This document shows, one piece after another, positions 2,670 through 64,000 of a DNA stretch of 64,000 bases. Source of the DNA: Xiphophorus maculatus (lineage: Eukaryota > Chordata > Actinopteri > Cyprinodontiformes > Poeciliidae); contig NC_036450.1 of NCBI RefSeq assembly GCF_002775205.1, positions 5,085,199 through 5,149,198 on the forward strand. The letters run 5' to 3'. The translations under genes were made by a program, and so were the position numbers. Under the pieces are notes generated by a model, which saw only the letters and a program-made list of their open reading frames with translations, was not told the origin of the DNA and did no database searches. Numbering within the stretch: the stretch's first letter is position 1; the number at the start of each line of letters is the position of its first letter.

Positions 2670-3199
2670 TCAGCACAGAAACACTGAGGAACCAGAACTG
2701 GACCAGAACATAAATCCAGGAATCAGAGGTTCAGTGAATGTGGTGTTGAAGGTGTGGAGGAGGATCAGTGAGTCAGAGGAAACTCTGTAGAAGGACAGAA
2801 TGCCAGCAGGACAGTCCACATACACTGCTACTCTGTTAGAGACAGAGGAGGAGGAGAGACGAGGTTCTCTGTTATTGTGACAGACAGAGTAACCATAATC
2901 ATCAGAGCAGCTCAGCCTCCAGGAATGATCATTCCATCCAAACAAACAGTCTTCACTGTCTCCTTTCCTCCTGATTCTTCTGTAACTCACTGATATATCA
3001 ACATCTCCTCTCCACTCGACCTCCCAGTAACAGCGACCAGTCAGACCAGTTCTACACAGCAGCTGAGGCCAGTGATCAAATCTGTCTGGATGATCAGGAT
3101 ATGACTGAAACTCCTTCACAAATGTCACCTTCCTGTTGTCTTCAGACAGTTTGAGTTTTCTGCTCACTGTGTTTGTGTCGATGGTGAGTTGACAGGAAT
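2670..3199 (-). CDS. B30.2 (PRY-SPRY) terminal exon of NLR gene B
   Basis: Last coding exon of a fish NLR-C-type receptor. It starts after a pyrimidine-rich acceptor (TTCTCTCCATCAG) and runs to a stop codon. About 176 residues match the B30.2 fold. PRY part: LTIDTNTVSRKLKLSEDNRK and YPDHPDRFDHWPQLLCR. SPRY part: CYWEVEWRG (WEVE motif), ISVSYRRIRRKG, FGWNDHSW, then VAVYVDCPAGILSFY (the LDYEAG-type motif) and LIPGF. In this family the domain is a ligand-recognition surface. Two paralogues (31932, 53015) differ mainly in the presumed loops. The exon needs a preceding splice phase of 1, whereas the nearest visible LRR exon (5588-5761) ends in phase 2, so an unseen linking exon is likely if the two are joined. 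Domain identity is certain; membership of gene B rests on order and strand. Confidence 0.9.
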
Positions 3200-5587
3200 C
3201 TGATGGAGAGAACAAACACAATCCAGCTGCAGTTATTGATCATTTATTGACACGTTGATGATGACTCCTGAATGAGTGATGTGACAGTTTGAAGATGGTT
3301 GAATGTGAGCTGCTTTGTTGTCATGAATCAGATGAAAAACACACTTACACTTCCTCAGACCTGGTGTCAAGAATGGGACTCCAGCAGGCTCCACCCTGAA
3401 AGGAGGAGGGGGGTCAGACCATCAGTCTCTTTCAGCAGCAGACATGGACATTACATGACTCTCAGACACACATTGTCCTCCACTGAGACAGGAACAGTCC
3501 AACATTTGGATTGCAAACTGCAGTGGATGTAGGAAGGACAGTTGGTGCTGCTGCAGCACAACTCATTTCTCCAAACACAGGAAAAGCTCCAACAGAGAGG
3601 AGAAAGGAAATCCCTCAGTAACAACCTGAAGAAACTCACTGAAGCCTAAAAGGACATCAGGAAACTAAGGAAACATTTCTGGAAGCTCAACCTGATTTAA
3701 TAATCAGCATTAAAATACAATCAATCTAAACTCTGACACAACACCTGGATACCTGTTCCATCCACACTCCCACACACAGATGAAGGAACGAAACACTAAA
3801 CAGCCCTGCTGCTGAAAACCTGCTGTGGCCTCACTGTAATATCCAGAAATACAAACATTAAAAAGGAGAAGCTGCATCACATTCAACAAAGAGCTCAACA
3901 AGAATCAAAGATTTGATCTCTGAGCTCAGACTCACAAACCAGGGAGAGGCTTCCATCATCACACACCTCTGACAAACACCTCCAACCTTTCAGCACTTCC
4001 TCTACCAACCAACACCACCAGGTGGTGCTGCTGCACACATTTACAATGAGGCCAAGAAGAAGAAGCAGCATCCTGAATCCAGCAGCTGCAGTAATGACTT
4101 GTGAAAGTGTCCAAGGAGCATCTGGAACCAGAACCAGCAGATCCAACAGTCCAGAGAGTCTTTGTTTGCATCTTTCCTCTCAGATTTCCAAGCTGCTCTG
4201 AGAGGGAAATGACATCATCACTTTACTGATGATGTCACGCTCTGATGTCACTGATCAGGAGCTGCTGGACTTGTACATTTCCAGCATGGAGGACAGAGAA
4301 GATCTCAGCTCTGATGAGGAGCTGGCCTGCCTTCAAACTGATTCAGGGTCAAAGAAATATTTCCAGATGAAGTCAGACTAAAATGTTGGATTGTCCTGCT
4401 GTTGCAATCAGAGGCCAAGAAGAAGCTTCAAGTTCTTCTCCTGTTCAGCTCTACGTTCCTGTCAGAGACTTCAGCTCCTCATGAGGAGAACAACTAAAGC
4501 CTGGAACAGACTGACACTAACATCCTGACATCTCATCCCTGAACAAAGCTTTGCAGCATCAAGGTGACTCTTAGCGCCATATATGGACAGATTTCCTCTA
4601 AAGGGGGCGGAGCCTGGATTGGAGGAACCAGCAGCAGCTTCCAGGAACAAACCTTGGGAACCTCTGGAGGAGAACATGGAGATGAGATTCCTGCTTTAAT
4701 CAGTGGATTCATTGATAGAAAACATGACGACTGAAATATCTGAGAGCTGCAGCTCCATTTTCTACAGATCTGCTGGAACATCAGATAGAAATGAAGAATT
4801 TCATCATTTCACCTCAAATCTGTTCATCTTCCACAGAAACAACTGAATTATTGACCTGAACTGGTTCTAAAGGTCTGGATGGTAAAAACATCCATTGTTT
4901 TTATGTCTCATTATTTTCCAGAAAGAGTTGAAATGTTTCAGAAGCTTTTATCCAGCAGCTCAGTAAAGATCTCTCCTCTTTCCAACCTGATTTAGTCCAT
5001 GAAGCAGAACATCTCTGCTGCTGCAGCAACAGGAGGAAACTTCTCCAGCTCTCAACTTCTACACTCTGACTGCTTGGAAACAGATCAGGGAGGAACAGCC
5101 TTTTCTCCAGGCTGCCTCCTCCTGACTCTAGCTCCACCTACTGGCTGTTCACCAGAGGTGGAGAAAGAACTCAAACAATGTACTGAAGTAAAAGTACAAA
5201 TAAACAGACAAAAATGTTCTCTAGTAAAAGAACCACATTAACATTTTTACTTGAGTAAAAGTAAGAAAGCATGAAAAAGCCTTTCTGCCATCAGTAGATC
5301 ATCATGGAAATCTAACTGAACTTCTTTTATTAATTTAGTCAGAGTCCCTATTAAACTATTAAACCCATCCCACTCTTTAATTTTCCTTGTGAGCCGTTCT
5401 TAGTCTGGAGAATATTCCAGAAAACTGGGTAATGATCTCTGCCTCCAGATGAGGCGTCTAAATATTTAATTATCAAATTAAACATTCAGCTTCAAACTAA
5501 ATGTTTCCCAGCAGACTGACTAAAGACATTTCTCCCTCTTCCTCCTCTATCAGACCTTCTCTGCTCCTGCAGCAGGTTCCTCCATAC
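3200..5587. repeat. Intron/segmental duplication copy 1 between LRR b and B30.2
   Basis: Non-coding DNA shared almost base for base with 32462-34811. Its first part (to about 4254) is also shared with 53548-54603. About 4390-5150 recurs inverted at 45003-45775. At 5150-5275 the copies differ: copy 1 has a short piece with paired AGTAAAAGTA motifs that looks like a dispersed fish repeat, whereas copy 2 has different sequence (34338-34510) shared with copy 3. ORFs in this stretch repeat between copies but show no recognisable domain. Confidence 0.75.
4229..4381 (+). other. Small acidic ORF, 50 codons, kept in copy 2
   Basis: ATG ATG followed by 48 sense codons and TAA, encoding an acidic peptide with the stretch DQELLDLYISSMEDREDLSS. 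The same reading frame is present near 33491-33643 in copy 2; copy 3 loses it because its sequence diverges after 54603. I do not recognise the peptide. Conservation between copies is uninformative because the surrounding DNA is equally conserved. It is opposite in strand to the NLR genes. It could be a fossil of a mobile element or chance. Confidence 0.2.
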
Positions 5588-5761
5588 CTGAGAGCTTCCA
5601 GTCTCCAGTGTGGATCCTTCAGTCCAGCCGACAGCAGCTTCACTCCTGAGTCTCCTGGATGATTGTAGCTCAGGTCCAACTCTTTCAGATGGGAGGGGTT
5701 GGAGGTCAGAGCTGAGGCCAGAGAAGCACAGCCTTCCTCTGAGACCAAACAGCCTGATAAG
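5588..5761 (-). CDS. LRR exon type b of NLR gene B
   Basis: One 174-nt exon holding about two ribonuclease-inhibitor-type leucine-rich repeats, bounded by acceptor CTGCAG and donor CAG|GTATGG. Translation includes LSGCLVSEEGCASLASAL, then HLKELDLSYNHPGDSG and [19 protein letters not shown]. Entry phase (1 nt completing a codon) and exit phase (2 nt) equal those of the a-type exon, so a and b exons can be chained in any number. Almost identical b exons are at 34812, 56083 and 59672. If the donor is ignored, the frame reads through to a stop about 90 nt later with a glutamate-rich tail, giving a possible alternative end without B30.2. Confidence 0.88.
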
Positions 5762-12272: not shown

Positions 12273-12498
12273 TAACTATTTTAATCCAATTTCAATTTTA
12301 ACAGTGGAGAAGTTTTGCTGCTTTAATATGTAACACTATGTCCAGCTGCGGAAGGAAGTCTGTTTCTTTTTTGTGCAACCTCCCAATAAATCATTTTGAA
12401 GAGACAATGCAACAATATATAAACTGAAACATGAATATTTACCTCATAATTAGCAGATTTCTATCTATAGAAAATGCATTAACAATCTGTGTCCTTAC

Positions 12499-14290
12499 AG
12501 AGCTTTGTTGGAGGCTTTAACCACTGGCAGCAGCCTCAGAAGAACCTCCTCTGAAGCAGAGTATTTCTTCAGGTCAAACACATCCAGATCTTTTCCTGAT
12601 GACACTAAGATGAAACCCAGAGCTGACCACTGAGCAGGAGACAGTTTATCTGTGGAGAGACGTCCTGAACTCAGAGACTGTTGGATCTCCTTCACTAGGG
12701 AACGATCATTCAGTTCATTCAGACAGTGGAACAGATTGATGCTTTTCTCTGCAGACACATTTTTACTGATTTTTTTCTTGATGAACTGAACTGTTTTCTG
12801 ATTGGTCTGTGAGCTACTTCCTGTCTTTGTGAGCAGACCTTGTAGGAGTCTCTGATTGGTCTGCAGTGAAAGTCCCAGGAGGAAGCGGAGGAACAAGTCC
12901 AGGTGTCCATTTGGACTCTGTAAGGCCTGGTCAACAGCTCTCTGATGGAGAGATTTTAGGTCAGATCTATTAAGTAATGAAGACTTCTTAGATCTTTGTG
13001 TTTCTTTCATCACGTCAGAACCAGAATTGATAAAGGTCAGATGAATATGAAGAGCAGCCAAAAACTCCTGAACACTCAGATGGACGAAGCAGAACACCTT
13101 GTCCTGGTACAGACCTCTCTCCTCTTTAAAGATCTGTGTGAACACTCCTGAGTACACTGAGGCTGCTCTGATATCGATGCCACACTCTGTCAGGTCTGAT
13201 TCATAGAAGATCAGGTTTCCTTTCTGCAGCTGATCAAAAGCCAGTTTTCCCAGAGACTCAATCATCGTCCTGCTCTCTGGACTCCAGTGTGGATCTGTTT
13301 CAGCTCCTCCATCATACTTGACCTTCTTCACTTTGGTCTGAACCACCAGGAAGTGGATGTACATCTCCGTCAGGGTTCTGGGCAGCTCTCCTCCCTCTCT
13401 GGTCTCCAACACATCCTCCAGAACTGTAGCAGTGATCCAGCAGAAGACTGGGATGTGGCACATGATGTGGAGGCTTCGTGATGTCTTCATGTGGGAGATG
13501 ATCCTGCTGGCCTGCTCCTTATCTCTGAATCTCTTTCTGAAGTACTCCTCCTTCTGTGGGTCATTGAACCCTCTGACCTCTGTTACCATGCCAACACACT
13601 GAGGAGGCATCTGATTGGCTGCTGCAGGTCGTGTGGTTATCCAGAGGAGAGCAGAGGGAAGCAGTTTCCCCCTGATGAGGTTTGTCAGCAGAACATCCAC
13701 TGAGGTGGACTCTGTAGCATCAGTCAGGATCTCCTTGTTGTAGAAGTCCAGAGGAAGTCGACTCTCATCCAGACCATCAAAGATGAACAGAACCTGGAAG
13801 TGTTCAAAGCTGCAGATTTCTTTGGTTTCACTAAAGAAATGATGAACAAGTTCCACCAAACTGAACTTATTCTCTTTCAGCACATTCAGCTCTCTGAATG
13901 TGAATGGAAATATGAACTGGATGTTCTGGTGGGCTTTGTCTTCAGCCCAGTCCAGAGTGAATTTCTGTGTTAGGACTGTTTTCCCAATGCCAGCCACTCC
14001 CTTTGTCATCACTGTTCTGATTGGTTGATCTCTTCCAGGTTGGACTTTAAAGATGTCTTCTTGTCTGATTGTTGTTTCTGGTCTGTGTGTTTTCCTGGAT
14101 GCTGTTTCAATCTGTCTGACCTCATGTTCATCATTGACCTCTCCAGTCCCTCCCTCTGTGATGTAGAGCTCTGTGTAGATCTGGTTCAGAAGGGTTGGAC
14201 TTCCTACTTTAGCAATCCCCTCAAACACAGACTGGAACTTCTTCTTCAGACCAGATTTAAGTTGATGTTGACAAAGTGCAGCAAAATGTC
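12499..14290 (-). CDS. FISNA-NACHT exon of NLR gene B
   Basis: The 1792-nt core exon of a fish NLR-C receptor (NLRC3/NLRP12-like in automatic annotations). Numbered from the start codon in exon 1, it covers residues about 172-768. A FISNA segment (about 182-240, [20 protein letters not shown] and [20 protein letters not shown]) precedes NACHT. Walker A GVAGIGKT is at about 269-276, Walker [10 protein letters not shown] at about 339-347, and sensor ALLWITTRP follows. The CHIPVFCWI motif and winged-helix-like part ([13 protein letters not shown]) follow in turn. NACHT binds ATP and drives oligomerisation. Acceptor TTAATTTAG and donor GCTCT|GTAAGG are in phase with exon 4 and LRR a. No stop or frameshift is seen; catalytic motifs are intact, so the gene may be functional. 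It is close to gene A's exon at 62396. Confidence 0.95.
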
Positions 14291-14421
14291 CTAAATTAAC
14301 ACAATAACGAAAATCTGATATGAAATCAGAGATGTTTTGCATAAATTTGATTCCATCTCTTCAAATTTCAGTAAATGTGTAATTTATCTATCATTTTAAA
14401 TCTCTGAAGAAATGTTCTTAC

Positions 14422-31931: not shown

Positions 31932-32461
31932 TCAGCACAGAAACACTGAGGAACCAGAACTGAACCAGAACCCAAATCCAGGAATCAGAGGTTCAGTGAA
32001 TGTGGTGTTGAAGGTGTGGAGGAGGATCAGTGAGTCAGAGGAAACTCTGTAGAAGGACAGAATGCCAGCAGGACAGTCCACATACACTGCTACTCTGGTA
32101 GAGACAGAGGAGGAGGAGAGACCAGTTCCTCTGTTATTGTGACAGACAGAGTAACCATGAACATCAGAGCAGCTCAGACTCCAGGAATGATCATTCCATC
32201 CAAACACACAGTCTCTACTGTTTCCTTTCCTCCTGATTCTTCTGTAACTCACTGATATATAAACATTTCCTCTCCACTCGACCTCCCAGTAACAGCAACC
32301 AGTCAGACCAGTTCTACACAGCAGCTGATTCCAGTAATCAAATCTGTCTGGATGATCAGGATATGACTGAAGCTTCTTCACACATGTCACCTTCCTGTTG
32401 TCTTCAGACAGTTTGATGTTTCTGTTCACTGTGTTTGTGTCGATGGTGAGTTGACAGGAAT
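31932..32461 (-). CDS. B30.2 (PRY-SPRY) exon of gene C
   Basis: Open for 176 residues with the same acceptor and stop position as the copy at 2670. PRY: LTIDTNTVNRNIKLSEDNRK, YPDHPDRFDYWNQLLCR; SPRY: CYWEVEWRGNVYISVSYRR, FGWNDHSWSLSCSDVHGYSV, VAVYVDCPAGILSFYRV. Compared with copy 1, about 20 residues differ, clustered at FDYWNQ, KGNSRDC, SDVHGYS, NNRGTG and GFGFW, while flanking introns are about 99 per cent alike by eye. The reading frame is undamaged although the parent gene has lost its NACHT exon, so either the loss is recent or the exon is still used. Confidence 0.85.
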
Positions 32462-34811
32462 CTGATGGAGAGAACAAACACAATCCAGCTGCAGTTATTG
32501 ATCATTTATTGACACTTTGATGATGACTCCTGAATGAGTGATGTGACAGTTTGAAGATGGTTGAATGTGAGCTGCTTTGTTGTCATGAATCAGATGAAAA
32601 ACACACTTACACTTCCTCAGACCTGGTGTCAAGAATGGGACTCCAGCAGGCTCCACCCTGAAAGGAGGAGGGGGGTCAGACCATCAGTCTCTTTCAGCAG
32701 CAAACATGGACATTACATGTCTCTCAGACACACATTGTCCTCCACTGAGACAGGAACAGTCCAACATTTGGATTGCAAACTGCAGTGGATGTAGGAAGGA
32801 CAGTTGGTGCTGCTGCAGCACATCTCATTTCTCCAAACACAGGAAAAGCTCCAACAGAGAGGAGAAAGGAAATCCCTCAGTAACAACCTGAAGAAACTCA
32901 CTGAAGCCTAAAAGGACATCAGGAAACTAAGGAAACATTTCTGGAAGCTCAACCTGATTTAATAATCAGCATTAAAATACAATCAATCTAAACTCTGACA
33001 CAACACCTGGATACCTGTTCCATCCACACTCCCACACACAGATGAAGGAATGAAACACTAAACAGCCCTGCTGCTGAAAACCTGCTGTGGCCTCACTGTA
33101 ATATCCAGAAATACAAACATTAAAAAGGAGAAGCTGCATCACATTCAACAAAGAGTTCAACAAGAATCAAAGATTTGATCTCTGAGCTCAGACTCACAAA
33201 CCAGGGAGAGGCTTCCATCATCACACACCTCTGACAAACACCTCCAACCTTTCAGCACTTCCTCTACCAACCAACACCACCAGGTGGCGCTGCTGCACAC
33301 ATTTACAATGAGACCAAGAAGAAGAAGCAGCATCCTGAATCCAGCAGCTGCAGTAATGGCTTGTGAAAGTGTCCAAGGAGCATCTGGAACCAGAACCAGC
33401 AGATCCAACAGTCCACAGAGTCTTTGTTTGCATCTTTCCTCTCAGTTTTCCAAGCTGCTCTGAGAGGGAAATGACATCATCATTCTACTGATGATGTCAC
33501 GCTCTGATGTCACTGATCAGGAGCTGCTGGACTTGTACATTTCCAGCATGGAGGACAGAGAAGATCTCAGCTCTGATGAGGAGCTGGCCTGCCTTCAAAC
33601 TGATTCAGGGTCAAAGAAATATTTCCAGATGAAGTCAGACTAAAATGTTGGATTGTCCTGCTGTTGCAATCAGAGGCCAAGAAGAAGCTTCAAGTTCTTC
33701 TCCTGTTCAGCTCTACGTTCCTGTCAGAGACTTCAGCTCCTCATGAGGAGAACAACTAAAGCCTGGAACAGACTGACACTAACATCCTGACATCTCATCC
33801 CTGAACAAAGCTTTGCAGCATCAAGGTGACTCTTAGCGCCATATATGGACAGATTTCCTCTAAAGGGGGCGGAGCCTGGATTGGAGGAACCAGCAGCAGC
33901 TTCCAGGAACAAACCTTGGGAACCTCTGGAGGAGAACATGGAGATGAGATTCCTGCTTTAATCAGTGGATTCATTGATAGAAAACATGACGACTGAAATA
34001 TCTGAGAGCTGCAGCTCCATTTTCTACAGATCTGCTGGAACATCAGATAGAAATGAAGAATTTCATCATTTCACATCAAATCTGTTCATCTTCCACAGAA
34101 ACAACTGAATTATTGACCTGAACTGGTTCTAAAGGTCTGGATGGTAAAAACATCCATTGTTTTTATGTCTCATTAGTTTCCAGAAAGAGTTGAAATGTTT
34201 CAGAAGCTTTTATCCAGCAGCTCAGTAAAGATCTCTCCTCTTTCCAACCTGATTTAGTCCATGAAGCAGAACATCTCTGCTGCTGCAGCAACAGGAGGAA
34301 ACTTCTCCAGCTCTCAACTTCTACACTCTGACTGCTTTTATTAAATCCTGAAAGTTGTGAGTTTTGTTTAAAATCTAAAGTTCTTTATTTTTCTCTCCCA
34401 TAACTTTTAAACATCCATCTGACCAACATGGAGTTACTTTTCTTCTCATCTTTGCTTCTTGGGGCTGATTGGTCTGGAGCTCCATCAAATATTGTTTTAA
34501 AGTCCTTTCTGCCATCAGTAGATCATCATGGAAATCTAACTGAACTTCTTTTATTCATTTAGTCAGAGTCCCTATTAAACTATTAAACCCATCCCACTCT
34601 TTAATTTTCCTTGTGAGCCGTTCTTAGTCTGGAGAATATTCCAGAAAACTGGGTAATGATCTCTGCCTCCAGATGAGGCGTCTAAATATTTAATGATCAA
34701 ATTAAACATTCAGCTTCAAACTAAATGTTTCCCAGCAGACTGACTAAAGACATTTCTCCCTCTTCCTCCTCTATCAGACCTTCTCTGCTCCTGCAGCAGG
34801 TTCCTCCATAC
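32462..34811. repeat. Segmental duplication copy 2 between B30.2 and LRR b
   Basis: Matches 3200-5587 closely up to about 34337. Then 34338-34510 replaces copy 1 sequence with DNA shared with copy 3 (55613-55780), after which all three align again. No coding exon seen. Confidence 0.75.
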
Positions 34812-34985
34812 CTGAGAGCTTCCAGTCTCCAGTGTGGATCCTTCAGTCCAGCCGACAGCAGCTTCACTCCTGAGTCTCCTGGATGATTGTAGCTCAGGTC
34901 CAACTCTTTCAGATGGGAGGGGTTGGAGGTCAGAGCTGAGGCCAGAGAAGCACAGCCTTCCTCTGAGACCAAACAGCCTGATAAG
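34812..34985 (-). CDS. LRR exon type b of gene C
   Basis: 174 nt, identical in structure to the b exon at 5588 (LSGCLVSEEGCASLASAL, ELDLSYNHPGDSG, GLKDPHWRLEALR), with intact acceptor CTGCAG and donor CAG|GTATGG. The next exon upstream on this strand that survives is exon 2 at 42400-42519, which ends in phase 2, exactly what this exon needs. A transcript skipping the missing exons would therefore stay in frame. Whether it is transcribed is unknown. Confidence 0.8.
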
Positions 34986-37193: not shown

Positions 37194-38393
37194 TCATTGG
37201 TCGGAAGTCTCCTGAAGAAGGCATATCTTTGTGATGGGTCTGCATAAGTGGCTGGTTGGGGTCTTAATCCAGACCTGACGTACAAGTCCAATTTTGTCTG
37301 GCACAGTTTCTGTGATTCTGCCCATGATCCAGGAACCACGAGGTGCCGAGTCCTCCATTATAAGGACCACATCTCCAGGAACAAAGTTGCGTCTAATCTT
37401 CATCCACTTTTGGCGCTGTTGAAGTTGAGGCAGATATTCTTTAATCCATCTCTTCCAGAACAGATTAGATATGTATTGGACCTGTCTCCATTGTTTCCGT
37501 GCATAAACATCATCTTTCTGGAATAAACCTGGTGGTAAGCTTGGGTTAGCCTTGAGTAAGAGAAGATGGTTCGGTGTTAGAGCTTCCAGATCATTTGGAT
37601 CAGCGGATTCCAATGTGATAGGTCTACTGTTGAGGATTGACTGCACTTCACAGAGAGCAGTTTGAAGTCCTTCCTCGTCCAAATGCTGTGTCTGCAAGGT
37701 GGAAGTAAGAGCTTTTCTGATGGAACGAATCAATCTCTTCCATGCTCCACCATGGTGCGATCCAGCTGGAGGATTGAAGATCCACTTCACCCCTTTCAGT
37801 GACAGCACGTCGGAGATCTTTTCCTGATTCCAATCTTCGATAGCTCGTCTCAGTTCGCGCTCTGCGCCCACAAAGTTGGTACCATTATCGGACCGCAGCT
37901 CTTGTACTTGGCCTCTCCTTGCAATGAAACGTCGTAAGGCGTTAATGAAAGAGTCTGTGTCAAGAGATGAGGCAACCTCAATGTGTACTGCTCTGATCGC
38001 CAAACATGTGAAGATAACTCCATATTTTTTCACAAGACTTCTCCCACGCTTCACTTCAAATGGACCAAAATAGTCCACTCCAACAAAACTAAAGAGGGGT
38101 TTTTCAGGGGTTACTCTGCTTTCAGGAAAATCTATCTTGAATTGTTGCTTCCATAGGTAATCCAGTGTAACAGTAGAAATTATGTTCATGGTGACAGTTG
38201 ACAGACCACTCGTTCTTTCCCAACATTCTCGGTCAATCGGCCCGTTCACTGTCCAGCCGAGCACAGTTTTAATGGCGAAAGGTCCTTCACCTTCGCTCCT
38301 AATGACCTCTAAAGGTTCTAGAGCTCTGGGCATGTTTATGCCAATCAAAAGCTCCACCTGTGCTTTGATCTCTGGCAAATGAACGCGCTTCAA
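37194..38393 (-). pseudogene. Pao protease-distal and integrase segment, RT missing
   Basis: A 399-codon open frame, continuous with the frame above except for a TAG at 38400-38402. Residues 1-93 (HLPEIKAQVELLIGINMPRA, LEPLEVIRSEGEGPFAIKTV, LGWTVNGP) are the end of the Pao protease domain. From about residue 94 (VTPEKPLFSFVGVDYFGPFE) it is integrase: D107 in DYFGPF, D169 in LRSDNGTNFVGA, then the third catalytic position is lysine (GGAWKRLIRS, codon 37737-37739) where GVWER-type glutamate is expected. The C-terminal part (NFVPGDVVLIMEDSAPRGSW, MGRI) is the integrase-associated domain. A few hundred residues of RT and RNase H are absent. It cannot move on its own. Confidence 0.85.
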
Positions 38394-38399
38394 GTGTGG

Positions 38400-40079
38400 C
38401 TAGATATCCAGATCTTGTTGCTTAGGGATGTTACTCAGGCCTACAGGCATTTTGTGCTGAGTAAAGAGGTCGGGCATGTCATAATACATGTCGCTGTCCA
38501 ATCCAGCAATTTCAAGTTCAGGTACAATGAAGCTGTCCACAACTTTCTCTTGTCCCATGGTGCACAAGAGAATCTTTGTTTTTCTTCCAATGAGATTCAG
38601 CTTATCCAAAAGACCCACTGTACAAAAGGATGCTGAACTCCCTTGGTCCAAAAAGGCATATGTTTCCAATATCCGTTGACCTTTCTTTGATTTCACCTTG
38701 ACTGGCATGATGGCAAGCTTGCAGTCCTGTTCACTGGCCCCAGTAAGACCACTAGTCTGAACTGTGTCAAGAGATTTCACTGCTTCAGCTTCATTCTTCT
38801 TCTTGTTGTAAATATGGAGTATGCTTGCATGTCTGAAACCACAGATTTTACATGAAAGGCGTTTTCTGCATTCTTTGCTGATGTGCCCTGTACACAGGCA
38901 ACCAAAACAGACGCCATTTCTTCTAAGAAATAAAATCTTCTCATTATGAGGTTTCTTTTCAAGCAGAGAACATAACTCCAGTTTGTGTCCACCTCTGCAA
39001 AACAAACAAATCTTCACATCAGTCTGAGGGTCTTGATTATTTCTCTCAACAGAGGTAGTGATGCCAAAGCTATTTCCTGTAGTTCTTGGGCGAGAAAAAC
39101 GTTTCCCTCCATCTGTACTCTTGGCTGATAAATTTATTGATGGAGCATCAATTAAGTTTCCAAAGACAGGATCTGTAATAATTTTGACTTGATGCTCAAT
39201 AAAGAAAACAATGTCAATAAATGTTGCTCTTCGATGCTGCTTCTCGAGGATGTCACATGCTACTGTTCGCCATTTATCTTTTAATTGATATGGCAATCTT
39301 TTAATCACAGCAAGCATATTAGCAGGTGTGTTTAATTCAGAAAGATCCTGAATGTCCTCCATCGCATTACAACACCCACGTAAGAACAAATAGTATGCCT
39401 GAAGAGCTTTTCCGTCTTCTGATTTAATCAATGGCCACGAATGAACTTTATTCAGGTAAGCAGATGCAATAACATGCCCATTTCCAAAATGCTCATACAG
39501 CATAGTCTTTGCTTTTACATATCCACCACCATCAGACATATGTTGACAGCTTTTGACAAGTTCATTGGGCTGCCCCCTGGTGTACTGTGCGAGGTAATGC
39601 AGGCAATCATCTGGATCACCTGTCTTTGATTCAATGACGTGTTCAAATGAGCGAATAAAGGCCTGAAAATGAAGCGGATTGCCATCAAAAGGTTGAATTT
39701 CTCTTTTGGGTAGTGAAGAGAGACTTTGTTGATGAACCAACATGCAAGTTAATTCATTTTGTTTCTCCATAATGGATGACAGATTTTCATTAGTTGCTGA
39801 TTGAGCAGCTTGCTGCAGAGGCATATTCGATATTGTTCTGCTTACAGGATGAGAAGGTCCAAGAAGAGGTGCAAACTTCTTCCTTGTCACTTTTTGTTGT
39901 ACTGTTTTTATTTGAAGCTCTGTATTTTCATTAACTGTATTTCTCTTTGTCTGTGGAACAAAAGTATTAGCATTAAGAGTTTCAACAGCATTTCCTTTTG
40001 TTTTAAAATAGGATTCCATTCCATTAGATTTCCGTGAAACTGAGCTTTGTACTGCAGATCCAATTTTCAGCACATTCAC
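38400..40079 (-). pseudogene. Pao gag and protease segment
   Basis: 559 codons in the same frame as the N-terminal gag ORF, separated from it by one TAG. Residues about 125-300 (REIQPFDGNPLHFQAFIRSF onward) are the DUF1759-type gag core. Two CCHC-like knuckles follow (CLFCRGGHKLELC at about 358-370; CFGCLCTGHISKEC at about 391-404) and a third Cys/His cluster (CKICGFRHASILH). An aspartic-protease motif FLDQGSSASF (D at about 478) starts the protease. It ends at TAG 38400-38402. Confidence 0.85.
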
Positions 40080-40142
40080 TTTTGCAGCAGTTGCAGCTAT
40101 TTCTGCTTCAAGTTGAAGCTGTTCTTTCCTTTTCCTAAGTTG

Positions 40143-53014: not shown

Positions 53015-53547
53015 TCAGCACAGAAACACTGAAGAGGAACCAGAACTGGGCCACAAGACCCTAAATCCAGGAATCAGAGGTTCAGTGAATGTGGTGTTGA
53101 AGGTGTGGAGGAGGATCAGTGAGTCAGAGGAAACTCTGTAGAAGGACAGAATGCCAGCAGGACAGTCCACATACACTGCTACTCTGTTAGAGACAGAGGA
53201 GGAGGAGAGACGAGTTTCTATCTTATTGTGCCAGACAGAGTAACCATCATCATCAGAGCATCTCAGACTCCAGGAATGATCATTATATCCAAACAAACAG
53301 TCGTCACTGTCTCCTTTCCTCCAGATTCTTCTGTAACTCACTGATATATAAACATCTCCTCTCCACTTGACCTCCCAGTAACAGCGACCAGTCAGACCAG
53401 TTCTACACAGCAGCTGAGGATAGAAATCAAATCTGTCTGGATGATCAGGATATGACTGAAGCTCCACACATGTCACCTTCCTGTTGTCTTCAGACAGTTT
53501 GAGTTTTCTGCTCACTGTGTTTGTGTCGATGGTGAGTTGACAGGAAT
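53015..53547 (-). CDS. B30.2 (PRY-SPRY) exon of NLR gene A
   Basis: Open to the stop with the same acceptor as its paralogues. Distinctive residues: VTCVELQSYPDHP (two residues shorter than copies 1 and 2), FDFYPQLLCR, CYWEVKWRGDVYISVSYRRI, WRKGDSDDCLFGYNDHSWSL, RCSDDDGYSVWHNKIETRL, and GFRVLWPSSGSSSVF (longer than the others). WEVE is WEVK here, and FGWN is FGYN. All length changes keep the frame. This is consistent with a functional domain whose loops are diverging. It is the last exon of gene A if the linking-exon problem (phase 2 to phase 1) is solved by an exon I cannot see. Confidence 0.9.
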
Positions 53548-56082
53548 CTGATGGAGAGAACAAATACAATCCAGCTGCAGTTATTGATCATTTATTGACA
53601 CTTTGATGATGACTCCTGAATGAGTGATGTGACAGTTTGAAGATGGTTGAATGTGAGCTGCTTTGTTGTCATGAATCAGATGAAAAACACACTTACACTT
53701 CCTCAGACCTGGTGTCAAGAATCGGCCTCCAGCAGGCTCCACCCTGAAAGGAGGAGGGGGGTCAGACCATCAGTCTCTTTCAGCAGCAAACATGGACATT
53801 ACATGTCTCTCAGACACACATTGTCCTCCACTGAGACAGGAACAGTCCAACATTTGGATTGCAAACTGCAGTGGATGTAGGAAGGACAGTTGGTGCTGCT
53901 GCAGCACAACTCTTTTCTCCAAACACAGGAAAAGCTCCAACAGAGAGGAGAAAGGAAATCCCTCAGTAACAACCTGAAGAAACTCACTGAAGCCTAAAAG
54001 GACATCAGGAAACTAAGGAAACATTTCTGGAAGCTCAACCTGATTTAATAATCAGCATTAAATACAATCAATCTAAACTCTGACACAAAACCTGGATACC
54101 TGTTCCATCCACACTCCCACACACAGATGAAGGAATGAAACACTAAACAGCCCTGCTGCTGAAAACCTGCTGTGGCCTCACTGTAATATCCAGAAATACA
54201 AACATTAAAAAGGAGAAGCTGCATCACATTCAACAAAGAGTTCAACAAGAATCAAAGATTTGATCTCTGAGCTCAGACTCACAAACCAGGGAGAGGCTTC
54301 CATCATCACACACCTCTGACAAACACCTCCAACCTTTCAGCACTTCCTCTACCAACCAACACCACCAGGTGGCGCTGCTGCACACATTTACAATGAGACC
54401 AAGAAGAAGAAGCAGCATCCTGAATCCAGCAGCTGCAGTAATGGCTTGTGAAAGTGTCCAAGGAGCATCTGGAACCAGAACCAGCAGATCCAACAGTCCA
54501 GAGAGTCTTTGTTTGCATCTTTCCTCTCAGATTTCCAAGCTGCTCTGAGAGGGAAATGACATCATCACTCTACTGATGATGTCATGCTCTGATGTCACTG
54601 ATCAATTGTTTTATTTATTGCAGTCGATTTAAACTAGAAGCTTGGTAAGATTACATAAAACTTCTCTAACCTAAATCAGTTTAACATCCAAAACTCAGAC
54701 AGCGTTTAGCAGCTTAACTTTCCTCGATATGTTTTTCAGATTTGATGGTGAATTTTTGAAAGCTAGCAGTTCATGATATCAGGGAGGCAAAGGCGGCACC
54801 AGAATCATTGATTACTTTCAAACTAACCAACAAATCAAAAAGCACAAAGCGACTTGGATGTAACTTGTAACGCAACGCTTTATAGAAATGTAGTGAAGTA
54901 GAAAGTACAGATACTGTAAAATGTAGTGGAGTAAAAGTTCCCACCATTAAATCTACTTACGTACAGAAACATGAAAAATGTCCTTAAGTTCAGTAACAAA
55001 GTTCTTGTCCCAACAACCAGGATCAGGTGAAGGACCTCTGCAGTCCCATGATGCTTCCTCTCCCTCTTCTAAACCATCTGATGGGCTGATATCATCCCTC
55101 TACTTTATCAATAAAATGTTTTTCTTTCTCTTATTACGATTTCATTATTTATCCTAAATGTGACGTCAGAGCTGTGGATCTGGAATCTGATTGGTCGGAT
55201 GGATATTTCCCTGGTTTTCCAACATGAAGGGTCTCTGCCTTTTTCCAAGACGTTGGGAATTTTTCCCAAACTTTATTGAACAATCCCAAAAGCTTTCCCA
55301 ACTACTGAAAACCTAAACACATTAGTCTTTTCTTGGATCTGTCTAAAAGGTCTTATTGTTGTTTTTCATTTCTACCACAGTCAACAGAGCACAATTCTAC
55401 TTTTTCACCATCATTCACTGCAATTCTTCATTTCCTCTGGAAAACAAGGGATTTCCATTCTCTCCTGATTCCTTTCATTCTTTGGATCATTTTCCAGATG
55501 TCGCCCCCTGGTGGAGATCAAACTACTAAATGGATGAAACTGTTAAAATTCTCACTTTCTTTCTTTGCCTCATGAATAGTTTTCTTCACTTTTTATGTAA
55601 TTTATATTTGATTAAATACTGAAAGTTGTGAGTTTTGTTTAAAATCTAAAGTTCTTTATTTTTCTCTCCCATAACTTTTAAACATCCATCTGACCAACAT
55701 GGAGTTACTTTTCTTCTCATCTTTGCTTCTTGGGGCTGATTGGTCTGGAGCTCCATCAAATATTGTTTTAAAGTCCTTTCTGTCATCAGTAGATCATCAT
55801 GGAAATCTAACTGAACTTCTTTTATTAATTTAGTCAAAGTCCCCATTAAACAATTAAAACCATCCCACTCTTTAATTTTCCTTGTGAGCCGTTCTTAGTC
55901 TGGAGAATATTCCAGAAAACTGGGTAATGATCTCTGCCTCCAGATGAGGCGTCTAAATATTTAATTATCAAATTAAACATTCAGCTTCAAACTAAATGTT
56001 TCCCAGCAGACTGACTAAAGACATTTCTCCCTCTTCCTCCTCTATCAGACCTTCTCTGCTCCTGCAGCAGGTTCCTCCATAC
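53548..56082. repeat. Segmental duplication copy 3 between B30.2 and LRR b
   Basis: Matches copies 1 and 2 up to 54603. Then 54604-55612 is unique, including a repeat-like GTAGTGAAGTAGAAAGTAC piece near 54890. Homology resumes at about 55613 (with copy 2) and 55775 (with all). No exon recognised. Confidence 0.7.
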
Positions 56083-56256
56083 CTGAGAGCTTCCAGTCTC
56101 CAGTGTGGATCCTTCAGTCCAGCCGACAGCAGCTTCACTCCTGAGTCTCCTGGATGATTGTAGCTCAGGTCCAACTCTTTCAGATGGGAGAGGTTGGAGG
56201 TCAGAGCTGAGGCCAGAGAAGCACAGCCTTCCTCTGAGACCAAACAGCCTGATAAG
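56083..56256 (-). CDS. LRR exon type b (third pair) of gene A
   Basis: 174 nt, CTGCAG acceptor and CAG|GTATGG donor. Same sequence as the other b exons except SNLSHLKELDLS where the rest have SNPSHL. The last LRR exon before B30.2 in gene A. Confidence 0.87.
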
Positions 56257-59144: not shown

Positions 59145-59671
59145 CTGAGGAGACAGGGAGAAAAATCTGTTAATCAGCAAATCAGAAATATTTATTTCTT
59201 TATTTCCAGTCAAGAATTTTCTTCTTGGGAAGATTGAAAGGACTTTTTACTTCACATATTGAACTGGATCATTTTGTAGATGGTTCTCCTGTCGTGAAGG
59301 ATTGAACAACAGACAACAAGGAGGCTGGCAAGAGAAATATTACAATCCACCATGAACTAAATGAATCCAGTGTCAGTTTTAACAGAAAGAGTCCAGTGGA
59401 AATCTAGGCTGAATATCAGCATCAGAGCTGGTTTGAGGGAAAACACCAGCTTCAAGCAAAGCAGAGAGAATCTCAGATTTCATCTTTCCCTTTTTAACTG
59501 CTTGGATACAGAGATGGAAAACTGAGTAGCAACTGACAAAAGCTGTTACTTTGAGCAACAAGCTAACTATTTAGCTTCAAACTAAATGTTTCCAGCAGAC
59601 TGACTAAAGACATTTCTCCCTCTTCCTCCTCTATCAGACCTTCTCTGCTCCTGCAGCAGGTTCCTCCATAC

Positions 59672-59845
59672 CTGAGAGCTTCCAGTCTCCAGTGTGGATC
59701 CTTCAGTCCAGCCGACAGCAGCTTCACTCCTGAGTCTCCTGGATGATTGTAGCTCAGGTCCAACTCTTTCAGATGGGAGGGGTTGGAGGTCAGAGCTGAG
59801 GCCAGAGAAGCACAGCCTTCCTCTGAGACCAAACAGCCTGATAAG
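59672..59845 (-). CDS. LRR exon type b (first pair) of gene A
   Basis: 174 nt, same as other b exons (LSGCLVSEEGCASLASAL, ELDLSYNHPGDSG). Downstream of its donor, one base of the CCCAGCAG motif kept in the other copies is missing, which changes the read-through tail; this suggests the tail is not under protein constraint in this copy. Confidence 0.88.
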
Positions 59846-61923: not shown

Positions 61924-62395
61924 CTGAGGAGACAGAGAGAAAAACCTGTTATTAAACAAATGATGAAAATTTATGTTCTTTCAAATCATCATCACTTTGG
62001 TTGGACAGAGAAGGAACTATCTTATTTTACACACATTCATGTTGATGTTTATTGTGAATCGGTTCATTCTACAGTTAGTCCTCCAGCCTTAAAGTTTAGA
62101 ACTGCAGGCAAAAAGGAGGATGGAGAGATAATTATAAGATTCCACAATGAACTAAATTAACCCAATTTCAATTTTAACATCAAGAGGAGTAGTTTTGCTG
62201 CTGGGATATGAAACAATATGTCCAGCTTTGCTGAAGGAAGTCTGTTTCACTTTTGCACGTCTCCTTCCTCCCCGCCAGTGGAAGACTTTGAAGAAACAAT
62301 GTACCAATATATAAACTGAAACATGAAAATATATTTATCTCATAATTAGCAGATTTCTATCTATCAAAAAATACAGTAACAATCTGTGACCTTAC
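61924..62395. other. Intron between NACHT and LRR a, gene A
   Basis: Non-coding. It corresponds to 11524-12498 of gene B without the 537-bp pogo-type insertion; the empty site is near 62140-62150. Confidence 0.75.
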
Positions 62396-64000
62396 AGAGC
62401 TTTGTTGGAGGCTTTAACCACTGGCAGCAGCCTCAGAAGAACCTCCTCTGAAGCAGAGTATTTCTTCAGGTCAAACACATCCAGATCTTTTCCTGATGAC
62501 ACTAAGATGAAACCCAGAGCTGACCACTGAGCAGGAGACAGTTCATCTGTGGAGAGACTTCCTGAACTCAGAGACTGTTGGATCTCCTCCACTAGAGAAC
62601 GATCATTCAGTTCATTCAGACAGTGGAACAGATTGATGCTTTTCTCTGCAGACACATTCTCATTGATCTTCTCCTTGATGTACTGAACTGTTTTCTGATT
62701 GGTCTGTGAGCTACTTCCTGTCTCTGTCAGCAGACCTTTTAAGAGTCTCTGATTGGTCTGCAGTGAAAGTCCCAGGAGGAAGCGGAGGAACAAGTCCAGG
62801 TGTCCATTTGGACTCCGTAAGGCCTGGTTAACAGCTCTCTGATGGAGAGATTTTAGGTCAGATTTATTAAATAATGAAGACCTCCTAGATCTTTGTGTTT
62901 CTTTCATCACATCAGAACCAGAGTTGATGAAGGTCAGATGAACATGAAGAGCAGCCAGAAACTCCTGAACACTCAGATGGACGAAGCAGAACACCCTGTC
63001 CTGGTACAGACCTCTCTCCTCTTTAAAGATCTGTGTGAACACTCCTGAGTACACTGAGGCTGCTGTGATATCGATGCCACACTCTGTCAGGTCTGATTCA
63101 TAGAAGATCAGGTTTCCTTTCTGCAGCTGATCAAAAGCCAGTTTTCCCAGAGACTCAATCATCTTCCTGCTCTCTGGACTCCAGTGTGGATCTGTTTCAG
63201 CTCCTCCATCATACTTGACCTTCTTCATTTTGGTCTGAACCACCAGGAAGTGGATATACATCTCCGTCACGGTTCTGGGCAGCTCTCCTCCCTCTCTGGT
63301 CTCCAACACATCCTCCAGAACTGTAGCAGTGATCCAGCAGAAGACTGGGATGTGACACATGATGTGGAGGCTTCGTGATGTCTTCATGTGGGAGATGATC
63401 CTGCTGGCCTGCTCCTTATCTCTGAATCTCTTCCTGAAGTACTCCTCCTTCTGTGGGTCATTGAACCCTCTGACCTCTGTCACCATGCCAACACACTGAG
63501 GAGGGATCTGATTGGCTGCTGCAGGTCGTGTGGTTATCCAGAGAAGAGCAGAGGGAAGCAGTTTCCCCCTGATGAGGTTTGTCAGCAGAACGTCCACTGA
63601 GGTGGACACTGTAGCATCAGTCAGGATCTCCTTGTTGTGGAAGTCCAGAGGAAGTCGACTCTCATCCAGACCATCAAAGATGAACAGAACCTGGAAGTGT
63701 TCAAAGCTGCAGATTTCTTTAGTTTCACTAAAGAAGTGATGAACAAGTTCCACCAAGCTGAACTTTTTCTCTTTCAGCACATTCAGTTCTCTGAAGGTGA
63801 ATGGAAATATGAACTGGATGTTCTGGTGGGCTTTGTCTTCAGCCCAGTCTAGAGTGAACTTCTGTGTTAGGACTGTTTTCCCAATGCCAGCCACTCCCTT
63901 TGTCATCACTGTTCTGATTGGTTGATCTCTTCCAGGTGGGACTTTAAAGATGTCTTCTTGTCTGATTGTTGTTTCTGGTCTGTGTTGTTTCCTGGATGCT
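62396..64000 (-). CDS. FISNA-NACHT exon of NLR gene A (5' part outside window)
   Basis: Open from the window edge to donor GCTCT|GTAAGG. It begins inside the FISNA-NACHT linker ([20 protein letters not shown]). Walker A GVAGIGKT, Walker [10 protein letters not shown], sensor ALLWITTRP and the winged-helix part ([16 protein letters not shown]) are intact, and no stop or frameshift is seen. It is very similar to gene B's exon but differs in scattered residues (for example NENVSAEKS versus [16 protein letters not shown] versus LTKTGSS). It heads at least five LRR exons and a B30.2 exon. Exons 1-4 must lie to the right of the window. Confidence 0.94.

Follow-up and report, generated by a model that had tools for sequence, protein, structure and literature searches.

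The window, i.e., the whole stretch of 64,000 nucleotides of Xiphophorus maculatus DNA analysed here, carries three B30.2 (PRY-SPRY) exons on its minus strand, at 2670-3199 (copy 1), 31932-32461 (copy 2) and 53015-53547 (copy 3), and they lie where an earlier note on this DNA had placed them. All three are open frames and are recognised by Pfam (in copy 1, which contains the hypervariable codons described below, PRY with 1.5e-17 and SPRY with 4e-12). The open frame of copy 1 extends to 3239, with its first 13 codons being intron and the splice acceptor TCAG/AT located at 3199/3200. About 150 bases upstream of the B30.2 exon, each copy in the window has a 47-base exon on the same strand, bordered by AG and GT, at 3349-3395 in copy 1, at 32611-32657 in copy 2 (0 mismatches to copy 1) and at 53697-53743 in copy 3 (2 mismatches to copy 1). 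LRR units, which lie between the NACHT and the B30.2 exons and were recognised by their unit-to-unit similarity, were located by tblastn on the minus strand at 5587-5757 (copy 1), 34811-34981 (copy 2, 100% to copy 1) and 56082-56252 (copy 3, 98.2% to copy 1); the protein of the first unit equals those of the units at 34811-34981 and 59671-59841, and Pfam LRR_6 was seen in one frame under its cut-off (20.7 vs 23.4 bits). Further upstream, also on the minus strand, a single large exon according to Pfam encodes FISNA, NACHT, winged helix and HD2 in the copy 1 gene (12495-14360; FISNA 5.6e-34, NACHT 2.3e-32, NLRC4_HD2 6.9e-37, NOD2_WH 2.4e-18), and the corresponding exon of the copy 3 gene (62395-64000, truncated by the window end; genome C8:5147593-5149434) has 96.8% DNA identity to it; the PRY-SPRY exon is C-terminal. 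Since the 47-base exon, the LRR units and, for copies 1 and 3, the FISNA-NACHT exon are found upstream of the PRY-SPRY exon, the genes look from their sequence like teleost NLR-B30.2 (NLR-C type) innate immune receptors. In passages of the zebrafish pan-NLRome study (PMC11192531), a conserved short exon of 47 bp in front of B30.2 is the marker that separates NLR-linked B30.2 domains from others, and the likeness of our exon to that marker rests on its length and place.

The copy 2 gene (31932-53015) has the B30.2 exon, the 47-base exon and the LRR unit, and no NACHT exon is listed between them and the next B30.2 exon. Upstream of copy 2, at 37194-40142 on the minus strand, there are retroelement pieces, with an integrase-like rve match under the Pfam cut-off together with DUF5641 and DUF1759, which we take to be of the BEL/Pao type. 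The best solved-structure match to the protein of 2670-3239 was the PRY-SPRY part of stonustoxin, a fish venom protein (2.2e-36), which scored better than TRIM16 (1.1e-25).

The window sits inside a 3.1 Mb array of the fish's own genome (704,300,149 bases, 101 contigs). A protein search gave at least 60 matches at ≥85% identity in this genome, of which 59 were full length and open; the best 150 of 391 candidates were scored, so that these numbers are minima in which broken copies may be underrepresented, and one fragment carrying a stop (C8:5027998-5028360) was excluded from the 60 listed matches. Among the matches listed, 57 of the 59 copies lie on C8 at 2.75-5.84 Mb and 2 on C92. The orientation of the array on C8 switches from block to block, in the order plus, minus, plus, minus, plus, minus; its content, at least 57 B30.2 and at least 54 NACHT exons, is of one type. 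At least 56 close relatives of the NACHT exon are present on C8 and C92, and a NACHT exon on the same strand is the next upstream neighbour of 53 of the 57 C8 B30.2 copies, the 4 others including window copy 2 and the near-identical pair L031/L032. All 59 proteins are distinct, with a median of 25 differing positions including gaps and a minimum of 1, and 51 of 193 aligned codons are identical across all the copies. In at least 8 of the 59 copies (56 shown), the final 10 bases of the 47-base exon form a variant block that combines several linked changes, as if a patch had come from another sequence. A second cluster, at C14:26.5-26.83 Mb, contains at least 13 related B30.2 exons, which are less variable at the columns that are hypervariable in the array.

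From 3 of the 59 copies, the earlier note had claimed that the B30.2 exons differ more than their non-coding flanks, and this was indeed the case in the window, where exon divergence was 4.2-6.7% and flank divergence 1.05-1.37%. Between copies 1 and 2 the exon differed at 26/529 positions (4.91%) and the flanks at 19/1532 (1.24%; Fisher p=5.2e-6), between copies 1 and 3 at 22/526 (4.18%) and 21/1528 (1.37%; p=2.9e-4), and between copies 2 and 3 at 35/526 (6.65%) and 16/1528 (1.05%; p=7.9e-11). The high likeness of the flanks, given in the note as about 99%, stands, but the figure has to be corrected to 98.6-99.0% for the three copies. The proteins differ, gaps included, at 23/176 (copies 1 and 2, where the note had roughly 12%), 22/178 (copies 1 and 3) and 30/178 (copies 2 and 3) positions, and the clusters of variation named in the note are real, FDHWPQ/FDYWNQ/FDFYPQ, KGDSEDC/KGNSRDC/KGDSDDC and GFMFW/GFGFW/GFRVLW being among them. 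As had also been claimed, most of the substitutions change the amino acid: along codons 15-193, 26 nonsynonymous and 0 synonymous changes separate copies 1 and 2, 22 and 1 separate copies 1 and 3, and about 33 and about 1 separate copies 2 and 3. Hence nonsynonymous exceeded synonymous change in the exon of every pair, with silent divergence (0 to 1.0%) level with the flanks and nonsynonymous divergence (5.4 to 8.1%) about 4-8 times the flank level. Neither of the two outcomes that the note had named as refuting its claim was therefore seen in the three copies. The intronic codons 1-13 were excluded from this exon-flank comparison and from the pN/pS estimates, and are included in the framework event and slot counts given below.

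The comparison was then extended to the array, with flank statistics based on 22 copies (231 pairs), 20 copies (190 pairs) or the 1396 of 1711 pairs that share at least 600 flank bases. An all-copy flank alignment was dropped, as it mixed non-homologous flanks (diversity of about 0.2), and a reference-anchored alignment was used instead. In the 22 copies whose flanks are complete, pairs differed on average at 0.95% of 5′ intron, 1.8% of 3′ flank and 5.2% of exon positions, and the exon differed more than the intron in 230/231 pairs and more than the 3′ flank in 230/231 pairs. With all 59 copies, the mean diversity was 0.012 for the intron, 0.061 for the exon and 0.066 for the 3′ flank, which then reaches the level of the exon owing to some copies in which it is old and diverged. 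Bases with a diversity above 0.3 accounted for 43/570 of the open frame, 3/1021 of the intron (which in the reference-anchored alignment includes the 47-base exon) and 8/470 of the 3′ flank.

Within the body of the exon, 22 codons are hypervariable (entropy of at least 1 bit), namely 26, 28, 40, 42, 56-58, 79, 81, 94, 96, 99, 102, 104, 110, 114, 115, 120, 123-125 and 127. The C-terminal end stretch, 177-187, is also hypervariable and shows in-frame length changes; columns 177-188 were excluded from most codon tests, their alignment being uncertain. As the sequences recombine, tree-free tests were used rather than tree-based site models. For codons 15-176, pS was 0.0226 and pN 0.0612 in the 20 full-flank copies, and 0.0369 and 0.0658, respectively, in all 59 copies, with pN above pS in 189/190 and 1587/1711 (non-independent) pairs. 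The 128 codons of lowest variability had a pN of 0.0087 and a pS of 0.0141 in the 20 full-flank copies, and a pS of 0.0291 in all 59; the hypervariable and framework classes were picked by amino-acid entropy from the same data, so that class-wise pN/pS values are circular. The NACHT exon served as a control, with 18 of the at least 56 copies on C8 and C92 included (16 plus the 2 in the window), and here pS was 0.0602 and pN 0.0178 (pN/pS 0.29), with pN above pS in 0/153 pairs; in the LRR control, the unit is identical between copies 1 and 2. Elevated nonsynonymous change is thus a property of the B30.2 exon and not of the NACHT exon, and this contrast, in 189/190 and 0/153 pairs, supports selection. 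When codon events were counted as lower bounds, N/S came to 0.97 over the whole frame and to 0.99 once the end stretch was removed; by class it was 1.48 for hypervariable, 3.49 for middle-class and 0.47 for framework codons, and the end stretch itself had 0.79. Such counts saturate at hypervariable codons and do not, taken alone, demonstrate that the exon is under positive selection. Variability is likewise higher at these columns in 10 scattered paralogues (Spearman 0.56) and in the 13 copies of the C14 cluster (0.38). In these 23 relatives, exact codons match alleles of the array at 7 to 17 of 18 to 22 columns, vs 2.2 to 3.9 with permuted columns, and the alleles are either old or else strongly restricted by function.

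Amino-acid differences barely depend on how far the flanks have diverged: in 1396 pairs they amounted to about 20 codons at a flank divergence of 0.3-0.6% and about 24 above 4% (rank correlation 0.26). Two pairs look like recent duplicates, L025/L026, with flanks 0.41% apart, 0 substitutions and one codon indel, and L031/L032, with flanks 0.46% apart, 3 amino-acid and 2 silent changes. The association between hypervariable body codons, measured as bias-corrected V2, fell from 0.173 for codons 1-5 nt apart (6 pairs) to 0.007 for those 6-15 nt apart (25 pairs) and 0.001 for those 16-45 nt apart (48 pairs); when the uncertain end stretch was added, it was 0.304, 0.073 (40 pairs) and 0.009, respectively. 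Flank markers at 6-15 nt gave 0.45 in the intron (5 pairs) and 0.62 in the 3′ flank (82 pairs), a control that comprises 11 intron and 62 3′-flank markers, many within a few blocks, and is taken as support only. For nine ungapped codons V2 was 0.0034 (36 pairs, 59 copies), and in the 20 full-flank copies the mean for the same codons was -0.014 over 13 pairs, with the 2 pairs no more than 15 nt apart at 0.071. In permutation tests, 5-13% of codon pairs reached p≤0.05 at distances of 2-110 codons and 17% did so for touching codons, and a few associated pairs were outliers (e.g., 90/108). The hypervariable codon alleles are therefore near linkage equilibrium, which is incomplete. Long shared tracts are scarce: 10 pairs of copies share a run of at least 8 of 28 hypervariable codons, where 50 permutations averaged 3.4 with a maximum of 10. 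Among third-base markers, all four combinations are present in 87/105 pairs, which requires at least 12 exchanges if each marker has a single origin; the silent marker at codon 74 precedes G and may recur.

Since a star tree also yields linkage equilibrium, equilibrium alone is no proof of exchange, and a test of allele origin based on third bases was added, which rests on 10 of the 22 columns. Where the third-base class changes, the minor of the two synonymous options is used in 5/126 cases (4%), and the direction of change is opposite between codons, A to C only at 28 and A to T only at 79. Columns 96 and 123 are exceptions to this single-origin pattern, which is shown at most testable codons, and codon 56 has mixed synonymous third bases.

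These data bear on a history in which a recent star-like burst of copies was followed by recurrent adaptive substitution in each copy independently, with these codons changing about 45 times faster than under neutrality and with little exchange. The intron spectrum is star-like (103 singletons vs 23 shared variants), and the amino-acid diversity lies between those of star simulations run at x30 and at x100; these simulations give no between-codon association, and their same-residue-different-codon fraction of 0.020 to 0.135 brackets the observed 0.034. Nevertheless, at x45 the star tree mixes synonymous options in a fraction of 0.337 (33.7%) of cases, with a minimum of 0.228 (22.8%) in 100 runs, which is to be set against the 5/126 observed and against the opposite directions between codons; moreover, the near-duplicate pairs barely differ, while other pairs with similar flank divergence differ by about 20 codons, and we regard such a burst as unlikely. 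A simulated coalescent without exchange gave a V2 of about 0.5 at the observed diversity, vs the observed 0.0094. Thus the two simulated no-exchange histories fail and, given the third-base test and the failure of the no-exchange tree, many codon alleles seem to have arisen once and then moved between copies. Targeted germline hypermutation or templated mutagenesis of these codons would fit the limitation of change, in-frame indels included, to discrete codons, but silent third bases are mostly fixed at hypervariable codons (at codon 58, 8 residues are all T-ending; codon 56 is the exception). Furthermore, singletons fill 0.299 of hypervariable nonsynonymous slots vs 0.156 of silent framework slots (p=0.008) and 0.047 of intron slots. 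For bases present in at least 4 copies, the filled fraction is 0.379 at the hypervariable nonsynonymous slots and 0.006 in the silent framework (odds ratio 94, p 5e-30). As the input of young variants is raised about 2-fold and the retention of common variants about 60-fold, such hypermutation is very unlikely.

A constraint specific to the flanks, i.e., a conserved intron that makes the exon seem fast, would agree with an intron diversity (1.2%) below the silent divergence of the NACHT exon (6.0%) and with the fewer singletons per slot in the intron (0.047) than in the silent framework (0.156); it is, however, highly improbable, with the silent framework sites of the exon itself being nearly as low as the intron (the pS of 0.0141 and 0.0291 given above) and the exon having a pS below its own pN. 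That the exon drifts without function, under relaxed constraint, could be suspected from the 4/57 C8 copies, window copy 2 among them, that have no NACHT exon as next upstream neighbour. This we consider scarcely credible, as relaxed constraint cannot yield a whole-exon pN well above pS, and, of the 60 close matches listed, 59 retain the full length and an open frame, with all their length changes in frame, even if a score-ranked list may miss broken copies.

The reading that we prefer, and to which we give a probability of about three in four, is that diversifying selection acts on the recognition surface of these NLRs, together with an exchange that homogenises the rest and reshuffles the hypervariable codons. 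The earlier note had offered diversifying selection or a conversion that homogenised the flanks as alternatives; its proposal is upheld, and the evidence favours both together. In the mechanism that we propose, selection would keep or favour different residues at about 22 body codons of B30.2, a domain that is probably in contact with ligands, and in the end stretch with its in-frame indels, and the rest of the domain would change little. Exchange between array copies, by gene conversion or unequal exchange, would keep introns and silent sites alike, and the same exchange would reshuffle old codon alleles between copies to near independence, the outcome being a germline combinatorial library of recognition surfaces. 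Exchange is supported because exon differences barely rise with flank divergence and because alleles that look single in origin are near linkage equilibrium. Ligand binding, pathogens as the selective agent and a great age of the alleles would all belong to this proposal, and gene conversion would be the presumed route of exchange. Weighing against it are the 3′-flank diversity that matches the exon in all 59 copies, the scarcity of long shared codon tracts, and a shuffling at a scale finer than simple conversion models produce.

This last point comes from toy models with arbitrary rates, where conversion operates evenly with a fixed mean tract length and near-duplicates are selected against, and where diversity is maintained. 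Tracts of at least 25 nt left a V2 of 0.04-0.2 at 6-15 nt, and only tracts near 10 nt matched (V2 0.02 and 0.009), in runs that show high flank diversity; in two runs without selection, hypervariable diversity dropped to 0.058 and 0.139, and none of the toy conversion runs matched every feature simultaneously. The mismatch points either to alleles of far greater age and a far larger real population than the toy has, or to an unusually fine exchange within the exon. A version of the latter, which we hold to be possible though doubtful, is that an exchange of very short patches (about 10 bases, one to a few codons each), confined to the exon, deals codon alleles independently among the approximately 59 germline exons. 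It would account for independent codons at 6-15 bases while flank variants stay associated and, if true, it would constitute a germline combinatorial receptor system with an outcome comparable to that of immunoglobulin gene conversion.

Much of the selection and exchange proposed here has precedents. In zebrafish NLR-B30.2 (NLR-C) genes, passages of Howe et al. 2016 (PMC4852459) describe a large clustered family with the same FISNA-NACHT, LRRs and C-terminal B30.2, LRRs that are not particularly variable, and a high B30.2 dN/dS concentrated in hypervariable regions; they propose that the action of gene conversion differs between NACHT and B30.2, and tracts of sub-exon length are suggested to combine substitutions. 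Our case differs in the genome, in being a single array with a near-invariant framework, and in that the linkage between codons was measured directly, a measurement that we did not find reported in those passages of PMC4852459. The receptor kind and the forces of selection and conversion have thus already been proposed in zebrafish, and the near linkage equilibrium is the added point, a sharper demonstration of shuffling. For the same B30.2 domain in finTRIMs, parts of van der Aa et al. 2009 (PMC2657112) report positions found by site models to be positively selected, most of them in predicted variable loops, and recombination was likewise looked for; here the receptor is an NLR, with the FISNA-NACHT exon as the usual upstream neighbour, and the tests are tree-free. 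Fungal NLRs with highly conserved WD, ANK or TPR repeats (HET-D, HET-R and kin) are also described, in sections of PMC4986451, as having recognition units that evolve in concert while a few codons of each unit are positively selected, with exchange within and between genes, but theirs are repeats inside proteins that act in incompatibility, and another recognition domain is involved. In what the zebrafish pan-NLRome study (PMC11192531) states on this point, copy number varies largely, the comparison is from fish to fish and single copies show very little polymorphism, whereas the differences analysed here are between copies in one assembly. The term "positive selection" is absent from the portion of the Sebastidae NLRC3 paper (PMC10648357) that was consulted, and no published work on this array was recognised in the literature searched, which omits most subscription journals.

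The array addresses an old question, namely how innate receptor families remain diverse despite gene conversion. In it, the forces that keep diversity are separated from those that homogenise, with a few dozen codons that are diverse and almost fully shuffled in a near-uniform background, which makes it a natural data set for measuring exchange tract length and selection jointly and provides a list of codons for binding tests. The genome of this fish would seem to hold a ready-made library of recognition surfaces.
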